From positions 1-52,199 of the forward strand of contig JAKALP010000035.1 of the NCBI GenBank assembly GCA_021824175.1: a DNA stretch of 52,199 nucleotides. Direction: 5' to 3'. The DNA is from Deltaproteobacteria bacterium (lineage in GTDB: Bacteria; Desulfobacterota; Desulfobacteria; Desulfobacterales; Desulfosarcinaceae). The position numbers were made by a program, and so were the translations under genes. The number at the start of each line of letters is the position of its first letter. Positions within the stretch are counted from its first letter, which is position 1. Of this stretch, positions 31,844 to 38,977 are shown piece after piece. A model generated the notes under the pieces. That model was not told the origin of the DNA. It did no database searches and worked only from the letters and a program-made list of their open reading frames with translations.

Positions 31844-34800
31844 ATGGCGGAAAAACCAATCGGAGCAGTGATGGTGGTGGGCGGCGGCATCGCCGGCATA
31901 CAGGCCAGTCTGGATCTGGCCGACTCCGGCTACTACGTCTACCTGGTCGAGAAAAGCGCTGGCATCGGCGGCGCCATGGCGCAACTGGACAAGACCTTTC
32001 CGACCAATGACTGCGCAATGTGAATTATTTCGCCCAAGTTGGTTGAGTGCGGTCGGCACTTAAACATTGCGTTGTTCACCCTGTCGGAAGTTCTCTCCGT
32101 CTCCGGCGAGCCCGGCGCGTTCACGGTGCAGGTCAAGCAGCATCCACGCTATGTGGATATGACCAAATGCATTGCCTGCGGCATGTGCATGGAAAAATGC
32201 CCCAAGAAGGTCGACGATGAATTCAACATGGCCATCAGCAAACGCAAGGCCGCTTATATCAAATACGGCCAAACCGTGCCGCTGAAATACGCCATCGACG
32301 GCCAGAATTGTCTCTTTATCACCAAGGGCAAATGCCGGGCCTGCGAAAAATTCTGCCCCACGGGCGCCATCAACTTTGAAGACAAAGAGAAGCAGATCAT
32401 GCTGCAGGTCGGCGCCGTGATCCTGGCGCCGGGGTATAATTACTTCGATCCGGGCGCCAACGATTTCTACGGCTACGGCCATATCCCCGACCTGGTGACC
32501 AGCATGGCCTATGAGCGGCTGTTGTCGGCCAGCGGTCCCAACATGGGCCATTTGATTCGCCCTTCGGACGGCCGGGAACCCAGAAGCATTGCCTGGATTC
32601 AATGCGTGGGCTCACGCCAAACCAACCGTTACGACCATGGCTATTGCTCCAGTGTCTGCTGCATGTACGCCATCAAACAGGCCTTGGTGACCGCCGAGCA
32701 CCTGCCCGGCGAGGCGCCCCAGCAGCAGATCTTCTACATCAACATCCGCACCCACGGCAAAGAGTTCGAGCGCTACTATAAAGATGCCAAGGTCAAAGGG
32801 GTGCAGTTCATCAAGGCCCGCCCCAAGGTGTCGCCGGGCAAGAACAATAAAGGCGTGACCTTGACCTATTTCACCGAGGATGGCCGCCGGATCATCGATC
32901 AGGTGGATATGGCGGTCTTGTCCATCGGTCTGCAAGCGCCCCAGGATGGGCTTCAACTGGCCGAGCGGCTTGACTTCCAACTCAATCACTACCACTTTGC
33001 CCGCACCCGCGCGGCCGCGCCCGTGAGCAGCACGCGCCAGGGCATCTACATCGCCGGCGCCTTTCACTCTCCCAAGGATATTCCCCAGTCCGTGACCGAG
33101 GCTTCCTGCGCCGCGGCCGAGGCGGCACGGCTGCTGGCGGCGGCCAAGGGAAGCTTGACCCAGGAGAAGAGTTATCCGCCCGAACGCGATATCAGCGCCG
33201 AAGCACCCAGGGTCGGTGTTTTCGTCTGCTCTTGCGGCATCAACATCGCCAATATAGTGGATGTCAAGGCCGTGGTGGCCTATGCCCAGACCCTGCCACA
33301 GGTGGTACTGGTGGAGAACAACCTGTTCACCTGTTCCACGGACACCCAGGGGCTGATCGCCCAAAAAATCAATGAACATAAGCTCAACCGCATTGTGATC
33401 GCCGCCTGCACGCCGCGCACCCACGAACCCATGTTTCAAGATACGTTGCGCGAGGTGGGGCTCAACCCCTATCTCATTGAGATGGCCAATATCCGCAATC
33501 AAAATGCCTGGGTGCACCAGTCCGATCCCCAAAGCGCCACCCGGAAAGCCAAGGATCAGGTACGCATGGCCGTGGCCAAGGTGGTGTTAAACCAACCCCT
33601 GCAGCGCATGCAGGTTCCAGTCACTCAAAAAGCACTGGTCATCGGCGGCGGCATGGCCGGCATGACGGCCGCCCTCGACTTTGCCGACCAGGGAATCGAA
33701 GTCTACTTGCTGGAAGCCAAGGAGCATTTGGGCGGCAATGCCGCCAACCTGCGCGTGACGTGGCAAAATGAGCCGGTCCAGCCCATGCTCGATGATCTCA
33801 TCACGCGCGTGGAGTGCCACCCGAAGATAAAAGTATTTCTCAAAGCGCAGTTGCTGGCCTGCAATGGGTCGGTGGGCAATTTCAGCTCCACCATCGAGAC
33901 ATCCGATGGGCCAAGGGAGATTAACTACGGCGCGGTGGTCATCGCCACCGGCGGCAGCGAATACTACCCGAGCGAATATCTTTTCGGCGAAGATGATCGC
34001 GTCCTGACTCAACTGCAATTCGACCGCAAGCTGCGCGTTGAATCGTCGGCACTGAAAAAAGCGCGCCAAGCGGTATTCATTCAGTGCGTGGGTTCCCGTG
34101 AGCCCCAGCGGCCCTATTGCAGCCGCGTCTGCTGCACCCACAGCATGATGTCGGCCATTGCTTTCAAAGAACTCAATCCTGAAATGGAGGTCATCATTGT
34201 CTACCGCGAGATTCGCACCTATGGCCAGTGGGAAGATCTCTATCGCAAGGCCCGGGATCTCGGCGTGATTTTCGTGCGCTACTCCCAGGAGAAGAAACCC
34301 AAAGTCACCCGCCGGGATGATGGTCTGGCCATCTCGGTTTACGATGCCGTTATCCGCCAAGAACTTAAGCTCCGAGCGGACTATGTGATCCTGGCCACGG
34401 CCATTGTTCACAACGATCAGCGCCGAATAGTGGAGATGTTCAAGTGCAGCGTCAATGCCGACGGTTTCATGAACGAGGCCCATCCCAAGCTGCGGCCGGT
34501 GGATATGTCGGTGGAAGGACTCTTCGTGGCCGGCCTGTGTCATTACCCCAAGCCTCTGGATGAGGCCATCACCCAGGCCAAGGCCGCGGTATCGCGCGCC
34601 GGCGTGATCCTGTCCAAACACCAATTGCAGCTCGATGCCGTCAAATCCTATGCCACGGCCCAATGCGACGGCTGCGCCCTGTGTCTGGATGTCTGCCCCT
34701 ATCAAGCCCTGGCCCTTGAAACGACGACTGATAATGGCCGCACGGCCAGGCGCATCAAAGTGGAAATGGCCCTTTGCAAAGGGTGCGGGCTGTGCCAGGC

Positions 34801-34888
34801 CACCTGTCCCAAGGAGGGCATTCTGGTTCACGGCTTTACCTTGGAGCAGCTGATGGCTGAAACCAACGCAGTGCTGGAGGTCGTATAA
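31844..34888 (+). CDS. hdrA: HdrA, selenocysteine-containing, two-module flavoprotein
   Basis: 1014 aa when the UGA at 32021-32023 is read as Sec60. The preceding frame (from ATG 31844, behind AAGGAAGG) gives [20 protein letters not shown] and TNDCAM, then U, then [14 protein letters not shown]: exactly the HdrA motif, with Cys or Sec in other species. Module 1 carries FAD, Sec60 and two ferredoxin clusters ([11 protein letters not shown] at 109, then CRACEKFC). Module 2 begins VFVCSCGIN (462) and has a second FAD site ([10 protein letters not shown], 599). Two C-terminal clusters end it (CDGCALC at 941, CKGCGLC at 978). HdrA is the bifurcating flavin subunit of Hdr complexes. Without recoding the first 65 residues would be lost. 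Confidence 0.93.
32021..32023 (+). other. In-frame UGA, selenocysteine 60 of HdrA
   Basis: The codon lies in NDCAM-U-IISPK, a family position that is Cys or Sec in HdrA. The frame is open for 59 codons before it and 954 after it. A SECIS-like hairpin follows at 32043-32063. Confidence 0.9.
32043..32063 (+). promoter_or_regulatory. SECIS-like hairpin of hdrA
   Basis: TTGAGTGC pairs with GCACTTAA (8 bp, one G-U) around the loop GGTCG. The loop starts 27 nt after the UGA and is close to the E. coli fdhF GGUC-type apical loop, in the range known for bacterial SECIS elements. Confidence 0.75.
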
Positions 34889-34889
34889 T

Positions 34890-35324
34890 ATGGAAAAGAA
34901 TTTCGAACCCGTCATTGTCGGCTATCTGTGCAACTGGTGCGCCTATGCGGGCGCGGATTTAGCTGGTGTTTCGCGGCTTGCGTATCCGGCCAACATGCGC
35001 CCCATCCGGGTGATGTGCACGGGCATGGTGCACCCCGAGCTGGTGGTGCATGCCTTGAGCAAAGGCGCGGACGGCGTCATTGTGATGGGTTGACATCTGG
35101 GTGAATGTCATTACCTGGATGGTAATCACAAAGCCCTGGCCCGCATGGAAGTCATCCGCACGACCCTGGAAGCATGCGGCATCGATCCGCGCCGCTTTGC
35201 CATTGAGTGGAGCTCTTCGGCCGAAGCGCCGCGCTTTGCGCATCTGGTGACCAAATTCACCGAGGAGATCCGAAAGCTTGGGCCGAACCCGCTGAAGCAG
35301 ACGAAACAAGCGGTCGGCGCCTAG
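34890..35324 (+). CDS. mvhD: MvhD (hydrogenase delta / FeS adaptor), selenocysteine-containing
   Basis: 144 aa when the UGA at 35091-35093 is read as Sec68. MvhD carries the 2Fe-2S centre that passes electrons from the hydrogenase to HdrA. Visible: LCNWCAYAGAD (Cys14, Cys17), VMCTGMVHPEL (Cys43), then GVIVMG-U-HLGECHYLDGNH, where other MvhD proteins have GCHPGDCHY. The C-terminal part FAIEWSSSAEAPRFAHLVTK is typical. The start lies 1 nt after the hdrA stop. Read without recoding the gene would end at residue 67. Confidence 0.93.
35091..35093 (+). other. In-frame UGA, selenocysteine 68 of MvhD
   Basis: The codon replaces the conserved Cys of GCHxGxCHY. The reading frame continues with full family similarity to TAG at 35322-35324. 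A hairpin follows at 35106-35130. Confidence 0.9.
35106..35130 (+). promoter_or_regulatory. SECIS-like hairpin of mvhD
   Basis: TGTCATTACC pairs with GGTAATCACA (10 bp with one C-C mismatch) around TGGAT. The loop begins 22 nt after the UGA. The same loop, spacing and outer sequence occur after the UGA of mvhA, with compensatory stem changes. Confidence 0.75.
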
Positions 35325-35432
35325 CCGGTTGAATTGGCCGAAGACGACATCTATCTCGCAAAAAGACGCTAGGACATTGGGAATCACGGATTAGCGGCTT
35401 GCTGCGCCAACAAATTATCCTGGGGAGTAGTC

Positions 35433-36527
35433 ATGAAGACTTTCGCCAACCTGATGGAAGAGATCGTCACCCCAAGACGGTGTCACCGCTGCGGTGGATG
35501 CGTGGCGTTTTGCACGGCTATCAACTTCGGTGCCTTGGAATTGGATGATGATGGCAAGCCGCGCTTCAAGGAACAAGAAAAGTGCATCGAATGCGGCCTG
35601 TGCTACGAGATCTGTCCCGAGATAGATAATATCCGCCAGGAAACCAAGCAACGGCTCGGATGGACTGCGCCCATGGGCCGCGTATTGGATATTGCCATGG
35701 CGCGCGCCCAGGACCCCAGACTATTGATGAATGCCAGGGACGGCGGCGTGCTTACGGCCCTGCTGCTGCATCTCTATGATTCCGGCCGCATCGATGGCGC
35801 CATTGTCACCAAACGCGTGGAGCCTTTCACCTGCGCCCCCTTGCTCGCCACCACCCGCCAGGAGATTATCGATGCCGGCGGATTTCACTTTGATGCCGTG
35901 GCCGGGGTTTCGCTGGTGGGCGAGCGCTACTCGGTGAATTCTCCCTTCATGGAACTGATGACCCCGCTGGCCAGAAAGGAGTTGCGGCGCATCGCCTTCG
36001 TGGGGCGGCCCTGCCAGATTGAAACCATGCGGCGCATGGAAACACTGGGAATCGTCCCATCGGATGCCGTGAAGTACTATTTCGGTCTGTATTGCAGGGG
36101 CAACTTCAGGTTCGGCGAAAAAGAAAAGACTTTGATGGAGAAAGCCGGCGGATTCAAATGGGATCAGGTGCGCAAAGTCAATTTCAAAAAAGGGCTCCAA
36201 GTTCACCTGAAGAGCGGAGAAATCAAAGTCATCGACTTCGACACTCTCGAACCTATCAAGAGACGGGCCTGCCGCTACTGCGCGGACTTCGGGTCGGAAT
36301 TCGCCGATATCGCCTGCGGCGGCGTAGGCACCATTGAAGGCTGGACCAATGTGATCTTGCGCACGCCCTTGGGCCGGGCTGTGTTCCTGGATGCGGCCGA
36401 AGAAAAACTGGAAGTATATAAAAACAAAAACGACCCGGACCGGCAGGCGAAACTGCTGAATGAAGTGCGCACCCTATCGCTTGCCAAGAAGGAAATGTCC
36501 GAGAGAAATCGTAAGGAGTCTCCATGA
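35433..36527 (+). CDS. FrhB-like protein (F420 hydrogenase/dehydrogenase beta-type)
   Basis: 364 aa. N-terminal ferredoxin domain with two 4Fe-4S motifs, CHRCGGCVAFC (17-27) and CIECGLCYEIC (51), then the FrhB N and C domains (MNARDGGVLTALLLHLYDSG, RIAFVGRPCQIETMRRM, RACRYCADFGSEFADIACGG). In methanogens FrhB binds FAD and reduces F420. In Desulfobacterota, where F420 is generally not known, the acceptor is unsettled: ferredoxin, NAD(P) or another carrier. It sits between mvhD and the hydrogenase subunits, so it probably adds another electron entry or exit to the Hdr-Mvh complex. Its stop overlaps the mvhG start (ATGA). Confidence 0.88.
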   Translation: MKTFANLMEEIVTPRRCHRCGGCVAFCTAINFGALELDDDGKPRFKEQEKCIECGLCYEICPEIDNIRQETKQRLGWTAPMGRVLDIAMARAQDPRLLMNARDGGVLTALLLHLYDSGRIDGAIVTKRVEPFTCAPLLATTRQEIIDAGGFHFDAVAGVSLVGERYSVNSPFMELMTPLARKELRRIAFVGRPCQIETMRRMETLGIVPSDAVKYYFGLYCRGNFRFGEKEKTLMEKAGGFKWDQVRKVNFKKGLQVHLKSGEIKVIDFDTLEPIKRRACRYCADFGSEFADIACGGVGTIEGWTNVILRTPLGRAVFLDAAEEKLEVYKNKNDPDRQAKLLNEVRTLSLAKKEMSERNRKESP

Positions 36528-37447
36528 GCGCTAAAATCTCTTCAGAGTGGCTCAATTCATGCTCAGGGTGTGAAATCTCCATCATCGACATGGGAGAAAG
36601 GCTCTTGGAAGCCCTGGCGCTGATTGAATTCGTCCATCTCCCGGCCTTGATCGACCATAAATACTACGGCCAGCTGGGAGATCAGCAGCATTTACATCTT
36701 CCGGAGGCGGATGTGGGAATCGTCAGCGGCGGCATCCGCAATACCGAGCACCTGGAGGTGGCCCAGGAAATGCGCCGGCAATGCAAAGTGATCATCGCCC
36801 TGGGCACCTGCGCCACCCATGGCGGCATTCCGGCCCTGTGCAACAGCTTTACCAACGAAGAAATCGTCACCACCTATTACTCCACCAGCACCACCGACAA
36901 ACCCGACGCCATACCGGCCCAGGGGATACCAGCGCTGCTGGAGCGCTGCTTTGCCTTGGATGAGCACATCAAGGTAGATATCTACCTGCCCGGATGTCCG
37001 CCCCATTCGGATCAGATCTTTGGCGCCTTGCTCGCCCTGCTCAAAGGACAGACACCGGAGCTGCCGACCAAAAGCGTGTGCGACCAATGCCCCAGCGTGC
37101 GCACCGGCAAAGGCCAGGTCAAAGCGCTCAAACGTTTTTTGCACGCTCCGGAATATCTGGTGCCCGATGAACCCTTGGAACGCATGCGCTGTCTGTTGGA
37201 GCAAGGTTTCTTGTGCATGGGACCGGTCACCCGCGGCGGTTGCGCCGGCAACGGGCCCACGCCGCGTTGCATCTCGGCCCGGGTGCCCTGCCGGGGGTGT
37301 TACGGTCCGGTCAAGGCCGACGGCAACCAAATGCTGGACATGCTCAATGCTTTGGCTTCCAATGGAATCGATATCCAGTCGCTGCCTGAAAAGGAATCTT
37401 TACTTCGCTTCAGCGGCGCGCACGGCTTGCTGAGGCCGGGACGTTGA
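36524..37447 (+). CDS. mvhG: [NiFe]-type hydrogenase small subunit (MvhG)
   Basis: 307 aa, cytoplasmic (no Tat signal). Cluster ligands: NSCSGCE (Cys13, Cys16), GTCATHGG, LPGCPPHSDQIFGAL for the proximal cluster; further Cys in CDQCPSVRTGKGQ, CMGPVTRGGCAGNGP and VPCRGCYGP for the medial and distal clusters. This matches group 3c hydrogenases (F420-nonreducing, Mvh), which pair with Hdr. The ATG overlaps the stop of the FrhB-like gene. The large subunit starts 72 bp downstream, after a period-8 repeat. Confidence 0.93.
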   Translation: MSAKISSEWLNSCSGCEISIIDMGERLLEALALIEFVHLPALIDHKYYGQLGDQQHLHLPEADVGIVSGGIRNTEHLEVAQEMRRQCKVIIALGTCATHGGIPALCNSFTNEEIVTTYYSTSTTDKPDAIPAQGIPALLERCFALDEHIKVDIYLPGCPPHSDQIFGALLALLKGQTPELPTKSVCDQCPSVRTGKGQVKALKRFLHAPEYLVPDEPLERMRCLLEQGFLCMGPVTRGGCAGNGPTPRCISARVPCRGCYGPVKADGNQMLDMLNALASNGIDIQSLPEKESLLRFSGAHGLLRPGR

Positions 37448-37464
37448 GTTCGTTAGTCGTCAGC

Positions 37465-37496
37465 CAATCAACGAATCAACCAATCAACGAATCAAC
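37465..37496. repeat. Period-8 microsatellite (SAATCAAC)4 between mvhG and mvhA
   Basis: Four perfect 8-bp units, alternating CAATCAAC and GAATCAAC, lie in the 72-bp spacer between the hydrogenase subunit genes. The same unit is found upstream of lhr (14971-15006). Confidence 0.85.
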
Positions 37497-37519
37497 GAAA
37501 AAACCAACGGAGACCTGCC

Positions 37520-38977
37520 ATGACCCAAACCATCCACATCGCTCCCATCACCCGCATCGAGGGCCACGCCTCCATTGCCATCCACCTGGACGCGGAAGGC
37601 AATGTGGCTGATACTCAATTCCACACCATGTCGCTGCGCGGGTTTGAGAAGTTTATCCAAGGCAAGCCAGCCGAAGAGATCCCGCGCATCGTCAGCCGCA
37701 TTTGCGGCATCTGCCCGTGGCATCACCATATGGCCTCCAACAAGGCCGTGGATCGCTGCTTTGGCGTGGAGCCGCCGCCGGCCGGCAGAAAACTGCGGGA
37801 GTTGATGCAGATCGTCTCCCATGCCGAAGACAAACTGCTGAACTTCTTCTTCCTGGCGGCCGCTGATTTTGTCATCGGCCCTGAAAGCGACTATGCGGTT
37901 CGCAATATTGTCGGCATTGCCAAAGCCAATCCCGAGCTGGCGACCAAGGTGGTGCGCATGCGCCAGATGGCCAAAATGATCCTGGAGAAGTTTGCGGGCA
38001 AAGCCATTCATCCAGTGGCCGGCGTGGCCGGCGGTTTTTCCAAGCCCATGCTGGAGAGCGACCGTGTGGAGATCCTGGCCAAGATGCGCGAGATCCTGGA
38101 TTTTGCCCTGTTCACCATTGAATTTGCCAAGACCCAGGTCTTTCCCCCCTACCTGGAGACCATCAAAACCCTGGGTGCCATCACGACAGGTTTCATCGGT
38201 ACGGTGGACGATCAAGGCGCCATGAATCTGTATGACGGCAAAATCCGCATCATGAAACCCGATGGCAGCCACACCGACTTCGATGCCCAGGACTACGCGG
38301 ATTATATAGGCGAACATGTCTTCTCCCACTCCTACGCCAAAATTCCTTACGCCCGGTTCTGGAATGAAGGCATCTGCCTGGATGTGGATGCGCCCAAGGG
38401 CATCTACCGGGCCAATTGCCTGGCGCGCATCAATGTGGCCGACAAGATGGCCACGCCTCGCGCCCAGGCTGAACTGGAAGAGTTTCGATCCCTTTTCGGA
38501 AGACCGGCCCAGGGCACCATGCTCTACCACTGGGCCCGGCTCATCGAAGAAGTATACGCCTGCGAACGGGCCATTGAACTGCTGGAAGATCCATCCATCA
38601 CCAATCCCTTGGTGCGCAACGAAGCCGAACCCAAGGCCGGCCGCGGCGTGGGGTGCGTGGAGGCCCCGCGCGGCACGCTGATTCATGACTATACTACGGA
38701 TAAAAATGGCTTGATCACCAAAGCCAACCTCATCGTGGGCAGCACGCACAATATCGGCCCCATCAACATGAGCGTGCACCAGGCCGCGCGCAACCTCATC
38801 AAGAACGGTCATGTGGATCAGGGCATTCTCAACAAAGTAGAAATGGCGGTGCGCGCCTACGACCCCTGAATTTCCTGCGCCACGCATCGCCTGGATGGCG
38901 ATCACGCAATCCGCATCGAAGTCATTGGCGTTAAAGGAGAGGTTATTGGGAGGTGGCCGAGAGAAGAAAAGCAATAG
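37520..38977 (+). CDS. mvhA: [NiFeSe] hydrogenase large subunit (MvhA), selenocysteine-containing
   Basis: 485 aa when the UGA at 38867-38869 is read as Sec450. N-terminal Ni ligands are RICGICPWHHH (Cys62, Cys65). At the C-terminus the frame reads AYDP-U-ISCATH, i.e. the obligatory DPCxxCxxH motif with Sec for the first Cys (Sec450, Cys453). Without recoding the protein ends at DP and lacks two Ni ligands, which would kill it, so the UGA must be decoded. A 29-residue tail (RLDGDHAIRIEVIG...) follows the His where hydrogenase maturation proteases cut, and it encodes the SECIS. VhuU of methanogens has the same Sec. The gene ends with TAG at 38975. Confidence 0.93.
38867..38869 (+). other. In-frame UGA, selenocysteine 450 of MvhA
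   Basis: The codon lies in DP-U-ISCATH, the Ni-binding C-terminal motif of hydrogenase large subunits. The downstream frame supplies the remaining Cys and the cleavage-site His, and a hairpin follows at 38886-38902. Confidence 0.9.
38886..38902 (+). promoter_or_regulatory. SECIS-like hairpin of mvhA
   Basis: ATCGCC pairs with GGCGAT around TGGAT; the loop begins 22 nt after the UGA. Compared with mvhD the loop and spacing are identical, and the stem differs by paired changes that keep base pairing. Confidence 0.75.

Follow-up and report, generated by a model that had tools for sequence, protein, structure and literature searches.

In bacteria, a UGA codon is read as selenocysteine (Sec) when SelB carrying Sec-tRNA binds a hairpin in the message. 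As modelled in the available part of PMC13188914, the bacterial form of this selenocysteine insertion sequence (SECIS; bSECIS for the bacterial model) is a small stem-loop within the coding region, with its loop 16-37 nt past the UGA and a G among the first two loop positions, commonly with G or U next. The accessible sections of Zhang et al. 2006 (PMC1794560) describe deltaproteobacterial selenoprotein operons of the order hdrA-frhD-frhG-frhA or glpC-hdrA-frhD-frhG-frhA, and those of PMC2702500 describe mvhA2DG-hdrA1 of Desulfobacterium autotrophicum HRM2, in which a Sec-containing cytoplasmic Mvh hydrogenase is clustered with a Sec-containing HdrA. The operon and its selenoproteins were thus published in 2006, and for D. 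autotrophicum in 2009 (PMC1794560, PMC2702500). In the available parts of PMC13188914, PMC10362691, PMC2702500 and PMC1794560, we came across no discussion of how the mvhA SECIS originated or of a SECIS being copied between mvhD and mvhA. Here, we analyze the SECIS elements of these two genes in a 52,199-nt contig of a Deltaproteobacteria bacterium of the Desulfosarcinaceae (JAKALP010000035.1, forward strand; hereafter the window), where hdrA, mvhD, an frhB-like gene, mvhG and mvhA form a cluster at 31844-38977. The remaining interest of the pair is that one of the two RNA signals lies inside a peptide that is probably cleaved off. We propose, with a probability of about 0.9, that these are ordinary selenoprotein genes in which each hairpin arose within its own gene on the codons of an existing tripeptide, and that no segment was copied.

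The cluster has known counterparts. As in the operon of Zhang et al. 2006, HdrA, MvhD/FrhD and MvhA/FrhA are Sec-containing and clustered, and the order differs in that an frhB/fdhB-like gene (35433-36527) stands between mvhD and mvhG (PMC1794560, as far as its accessible sections go); the D. autotrophicum cluster is likened to it by gene content, not base by base (PMC2702500, available part). The VhuU profile NF041786 matches MvhA residues 432-468 with 39.4 bits, under the family cut-off of 70; unlike methanogen VhuA/VhuU, however, MvhA of the window is one fused subunit, with its hairpin within the coding region. The features on which the argument turns are as follows.

34890-35324, + strand: mvhD (FlpD family), PF02662 176.7 bits; predicted Sec codon UGA at 35091-35093, the single TGA within the open frame.
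35110-35126, + strand: putative mvhD SECIS hairpin AUUACC-UGGAU-GGUAAU; 5' arm ATTACC 35110-35115, loop TGGAT 35116-35120, 3' arm GGTAAT 35121-35126.
37520-38977, + strand: mvhA, [NiFeSe]-type large subunit, PF00374 120.6 bits; UGA at 38867-38869; top NCBIfam match VhuA, 455.2 bits, under the equivalog cut-off of 800.
38886-38902, + strand: putative mvhA SECIS hairpin AUCGCC-UGGAU-GGCGAU; 5' arm ATCGCC 38886-38891, loop TGGAT 38892-38896, 3' arm GGCGAT 38897-38902.
38888-38974, + strand: MvhA C-terminal tail RLDGDHAIRIEVIGVKGEVIGRWPREEKQ, the codons past the conserved His of DPUISCATH; homologous to the tails of cysteine (Cys)-type MvhA and probably removed at maturation.

MvhA carries both the nickel hydrogenase domain and the DP(C/U)xxC motif of an MvhA/VhuA-type [NiFeSe] large subunit, the Sec codon standing at the first Cys of DPCxxC (here DPUISC, near the C-terminus); the 418-position VhuA model seems to have been built for the archaeal split subunit.

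Both hairpins have 6 bp, a five-base UGGAU loop and 22 nt separating UGA from loop, just as a first-pass annotation of this DNA had placed them. Each is a coding-region stem-loop with a spacing inside 16-37 nt and a G among the first two loop positions, follows a UGA at the homologues' Cys site in a genome that encodes SelB (379 bits) and tRNA-Sec (73.3 bits), and is kept in Sec forms only; nothing essential differs from the bSECIS model as given in the available part of PMC13188914. The energies of single folded sequences differ little from those of shuffled ones: taking 60 nt from the UGA gives z-scores of -0.29 for mvhD, where the minimum free energy belongs to an alternative fold, and -1.07 for mvhA, and taking 50 nt gives -1.54 and -0.91. 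Because single-sequence folding was weak, we tested the hairpins by comparison across relatives.

For MvhA we collected 141 loci: the window, 60 stretches picked from matches in 395 genomes of the phylum (L069-L128) and 80 loci retained after scanning GTDB genomes (L129-L208). Removing three truncated loci that miss the DPCxxC motif (L110, L119, L120) and two duplicates left 136 rows, 65 Sec-type and 71 Cys-type. Near Cys-type rows are those with at least 50% identity (15 rows). Hairpins were counted in 13 of these, omitting L114, whose tail is lost, and L152, which is too short at a contig end; the 13 include L117, which stops directly after the His, leaving the hairpin's place untranslated. 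Tails are readable in 12, without L114, L117 and L152. The 103 MvhD loci yielded 97 rows after removal of three unparsed and three duplicate loci (46 Sec-type and 51 Cys-type, 44 of the latter with the same spacing), and 42 further mvhD loci, less four unparsed ones (L224, L225, L228, L256), gave 38 that read as Sec-type. MvhD was missing from the fetched stretch in 38 of the 136 MvhA rows; where both genes are present, 45 loci are Sec-type in both, eight pair Sec-type MvhA with Cys-type MvhD, two show the reverse, and 43 are Cys-type in both.

The inner four base pairs of the mvhA stem are intact in 64 of the 65 Sec-type genes, in none of the 13 near Cys-type genes and in 4 of 56 far ones, and the loop is UGGAY throughout the Sec-type genes (UGGAU in 34, UGGAC in 31); conservation is lower for the outermost pair of the six, found in 44 of 65. 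All six mvhD pairs are present in 44 of 46 Sec-type versus 5 of 44 Cys-type genes (the inner four in 7 of 44), and again in all 38 further Sec-type genes, one of them through a compensatory change. Mean minimum free energies of nt 17-39 follow the same division: -10.5 for Sec-type mvhA, -1.5 and -3.8 for near and far Cys-type mvhA, -5.7 for Sec-type mvhD and -2.7 for Cys-type mvhD. Within mvhA the stem covaries, with U-A, C-G or U-G at the second pair, C-G, U-A or U-G at the third and G-C or A-U at the fourth; across 61 distinct rows 344 of 366 cells are paired and 19 doubly changed, a value reached in none of 1000 shuffles, and sliding the partner positions leaves 17 to 68 percent of cells paired. 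The mvhD stem is nearly invariant, one copy in the window's own genome (L296) carrying ATTTCC/GGAAAT, with Phe for Tyr and the matching change in the partner arm. These patterns bear out the earlier claim of a selected RNA structure, and the two hairpins look like bacterial SECIS elements under selection; Sec would be inserted at both UGAs.

The two Sec-type mvhD genes without the common stem, L165 and L183 (Bacillota; Candidatus Desulfopertinax cowenii, Peptococcaceae), may form a different hairpin in the same position, CCACTA/TAGTGG as read by eye, and in both the Sec-type mvhD lies next to a Cys-type mvhA; perhaps the Sec codon originated independently there at the same site. On the near-fixed AUUACC/GGUAAU stem, the mvhD loops come in several types: UGGAN, AGGAU, UGUAY, AGUCU and AGGUU (L217-L256, L293, L296).

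How did two neighboring genes come to share such an element? The first-pass annotation proposed SECIS shuffling, in which mvhA acquired in its tail a copy of the segment holding the mvhD hairpin, the stem of the copy being retuned afterwards. This would account for the identical CC-UGGAU-GG apex and 22-nt spacing in the window, and for the prevalence of UGGA loops in Sec-type mvhD (39 of 46) beside the UGGAY loops of Sec-type mvhA. Its reading of TTACC/GGTAA in one gene and TCGCC/GGCGA in the other as compensatory changes does not hold, since the genes are not homologous and a difference between them is no covariation; true covariation is found within mvhA, and once within mvhD. It also expected only Sec-type MvhA to carry the tail, yet among the readable near Cys-type tails positions +8 to +10 are exactly LDG in 6 of 12 and xDG in 11 of 12, the very result it had named as contrary. 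Cys-type tails align without gaps (ATH-KLDGS, ATH-RLDGK and ASH-ELDGR; also NLDGR, KLDGT, KMDGS and ALDGK) and come from Planctomycetota, Chloroflexota, Bacteroidota, Acidobacteriota and other phyla; a homologous tail with xDG stands at the same place in Cys-type MvhA outside the Sec group, and in gapless alignment A1, D459 and G460 are invariant in 14 of 14 rows, three Cys forms among them.

The peptide likeness between MvhD and MvhA, a further plank of the copying proposal, is real for the shared LDG and goes no further. Residues +7 to +24 of the Sec-type MvhA tails (63 rows) score 28.8 against the near Cys-type tails (12 rows) and -3.1 against Sec-type MvhD (46 rows; z 1.9); leaving out LDG, the scores are 14.8 (z 4.8) and -16.8 (z -0.8), the latter equaled or exceeded in 230 of 300 column permutations. 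Each family also retains its own stem: in 44 loci with both genes Sec-type the loops are identical in 18 and the 5' arms in none. The 9-mer common to both hairpins, CCTGGATGG, is not rare in the 6.07-Mb genome either, where TGA-N(14-30)-CCTGGATGG occurs 59 times (26 forward, 33 reverse, a few sites being listed twice and matches counted irrespective of frame) as against two forward and no reverse occurrences of the reversed pattern. Cassette identity is slightly higher within than between genomes, which favors exchange; we considered gene conversion between mvhA and mvhD on this ground and rejected it, as the excess is 0.12 of 18 nt, too small to mean exchange. We regard copying as extremely improbable and reject it; the likeness is best explained, as far as comparison of sequences can tell, by both genes having converged on LDG codons that were there beforehand, subject to the same loop rule.

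For the origin of each hairpin in place, we propose the following series of events. Each UGA would be decoded as Sec by SelB and tRNA-Sec, guided by the in-frame hairpin whose loop lies 22 nt downstream. The hairpins would have arisen on codons of a tripeptide that already occupied positions +8 to +10, mostly L/Q-D/E-G in MvhD and x-L-D-G in MvhA, and the stems would then have been built by synonymous changes, joined in the MvhA tail by amino-acid changes. The common UGGAY loop would follow because both tripeptides can be encoded by CTG-GA(Y)-GG and the loop rule favors UGGAY. In MvhD the hairpin encodes the conserved CHYxxGN, which, as had been supposed, is ancestral (43 of 51 Cys forms have this motif at the same spacing), so that this segment is constrained by protein and RNA alike. 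Codon choice differs as well: AAT stands in all 84 Sec-type mvhD genes and GGT in 81 of them, against AAC in 23 and GGC, GGA or GGG in 35 of 44 Cys-type genes. In MvhA the hairpin lies past the His of DPUxSCATH, in a part that HycI-type proteases would be expected to cut off, and residues +7 (R/C/H) and +11 (G/D/R/S/E) of the Sec forms vary with the stem, whose needs they may follow. This would make the pair a well-sampled case of bacterial SECIS elements arising in place on suitable tripeptide codons, equally spaced from the UGA although the two proteins are unrelated, and it cautions that a short motif common to neighboring genes need not mean copying.

Trees built without the tail (95 of the 136 rows in the first, 50 in the second, and 42 in the third, including 8 of 30 archaeal loci) place Sec-type MvhA in one group, with the single Cys row L114 inside or beside it, adjoining Cys rows with xDG tails. 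Support for the group of all Sec rows plus L114 is 94 in the first tree (Shimodaira-Hasegawa-like approximate likelihood ratio test, SH-aLRT), 92/96 in the second and 98/95 in the third, and at least two changes of codon state are needed. We take this to mean that mvhA gained its UGA once and that one reversion followed, LDG being older than the UGA.

Several results weigh against origin in place as we describe it. The single-sequence energies of both hairpins are not significant against shuffles. Sliding the mvhA partner positions by +3 gives seven extra pair types against six for the real stem, although with fewer paired cells and 11 rather than 19 doubly changed. With LDG included, the likeness of Sec-type MvhA tails to Sec-type MvhD is equaled in 8 of 300 permutations, and the 18-nt cassette identity mentioned above is 11.73 within against 11.61 between genomes (44 loci; permutation p 0.0285, uncorrected for relatedness or GC content). 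Far Cys-type tails have DG at +9 and +10 in 0 of 56 rows and LPG in 32 of 56, which leaves the near Cys rows, two deeper ones (L118, L155) and archaeal tails with xDS or xDG as the basis for regarding LDG as very old. Finally, the trees by themselves cannot separate gain from loss, they were built without the split VhuA/VhuU of Sec-decoding archaea, and the UGA could have preceded the bacterial hairpin.

Two alternatives grow out of these last points. In the first, mvhA arrived from archaea as a Sec gene with its SECIS in the 3' untranslated region, and the bacterial hairpin was formed in the tail that came with it. Zhang et al. lend this route some support. We nevertheless consider it unlikely: the trees put the phylum's Sec-type MvhA beside mainly bacterial Cys forms that share 54-60% identity with the window. 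By comparison, the best matches in 151 genomes of the phylum of archaeal locus L205 reach 47%, and a UGA is present in none of the matches listed at an E value of 1e-90 or better (107 genomes), although no Sec-decoding archaea with split VhuA/VhuU were identified in that sample. In the second, the near Cys xDG tails are left over from lost Sec forms, LDG having spread only once the SECIS existed. Reversion from Sec to Cys is indeed probable for the tail-less L114, given its grouping with Sec rows, and the Cys-type MvhD at eight loci with Sec-type MvhA and the absence of DG from far Cys tails point the same way. Yet the stem is missing from every near Cys-type gene counted, DG recurs in L118 and L155, and archaeal MvhA tails have DG or DS (mostly IDS or MDS, a few DG), which makes such a relic very unlikely; even if true, it would imply no copy from mvhD. 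Origin in place thus remains the reading we prefer.

That the mvhA hairpin lies within the C-terminal tail was correctly seen in the first-pass annotation, and this tail is probably removed by the maturation protease; the genome encodes three HycI-family endopeptidases. At least 23 residues follow the His in 63 of 65 Sec-type rows, the other two running off their contigs, and the tail is lost in 2 of 15 near Cys-type genes. It is tempting to see the tail as a disposable peptide, with the RNA largely dictating its sequence in Sec forms, so that Sec genes cannot lose it, and to suppose that both subunits converged on one loop because matched SelB affinity balances Sec insertion; this broader idea we hold to be doubtful. 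The narrower point, that a peptide destined for removal may be shaped by an RNA signal, is suggested by our data and should be useful for annotating Sec hydrogenases.

The two tail-less Cys-type proteins, L114 (G004) and L117 (G140), end in ATM and ATH respectively, as if proteolytic maturation were unneeded. In L110, L119 and L120 (genomes G188, G038 and G136; family f48), MvhA ends before or at DPCxxC (AYNP, AYNPSFQD and AYAP) and the C-terminal nickel ligands are missing; in L110 a TAG follows the proline codon, part of the tail survives in a different frame, and the gene looks decayed. A separate VhuU-like gene downstream was considered for these three, and no P-C/U-x-x-C-H motif occurs in the fetched loci. 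Amber codons noticed in some MvhA rows were likewise dismissed: in L069 and L075, whose tails were read, TAG is the normal terminator.

An in-frame UGA stands at the relatives' Cys site in three of the five cluster genes (hdrA 32021, mvhD 35091, mvhA 38867). The remaining features of the cluster are listed here.

31844-34888, + strand: hdrA (HdrA2-like), selenoprotein gene; UGA 32021-32023; NCBIfam NF040770 937.8 bits, under the 1100-bit cut-off.
32043-32063, + strand: hdrA's own hairpin, unlike those of mvhD and mvhA; 5' arm UUGAGUGC 32043-32050, loop GGUCG 32051-32055, 3' arm GCACUUAA 32056-32063.
35433-36527, + strand: FrhB/FdhB-like beta subunit gene, between mvhD and mvhG; PF04432 112.8 bits, PF04422 49.8 bits.
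36524-37447, + strand: mvhG (small hydrogenase subunit); PF01058 106.3 bits, NF045875 VhuG 221.5 bits, under the cut-off of 450.

Of 28 distinct Sec-type rows, 23 have the hdrA hairpin GAGUGCGGUCGGCACUU (GAGUGC-GGUCG-GCACUU), which is absent from all 23 Cys-type rows, so that across genomes three different hairpins are maintained, one each in hdrA, mvhD and mvhA. A second class of hdrA hairpin, GAGGUCGGCCG, occurs in L071, L073, L074 and L075 and in two copies from the window's own genome (L280, L281). Scanned with Rfam at gathering scores, the window yielded two tRNAs and nothing else. Elsewhere in the genome, an in-frame UGA occurs in further copies of hdrA and mvhD and in three molybdopterin oxidoreductases, two of which carry the formate dehydrogenase motif UHxP; a simple hairpin finder gave loops GGUCG, GGUC or AGGU for the genome's hdrA copies, while in two of its formate dehydrogenase genes the loops were GUC or GGC, flanked by G and U. 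One hdrA fragment (L304, G000:C28:1887-2075) has 81% identity to the window's HdrA and loses its likeness two codons past the UGA, which by its sequence marks it as a broken copy.

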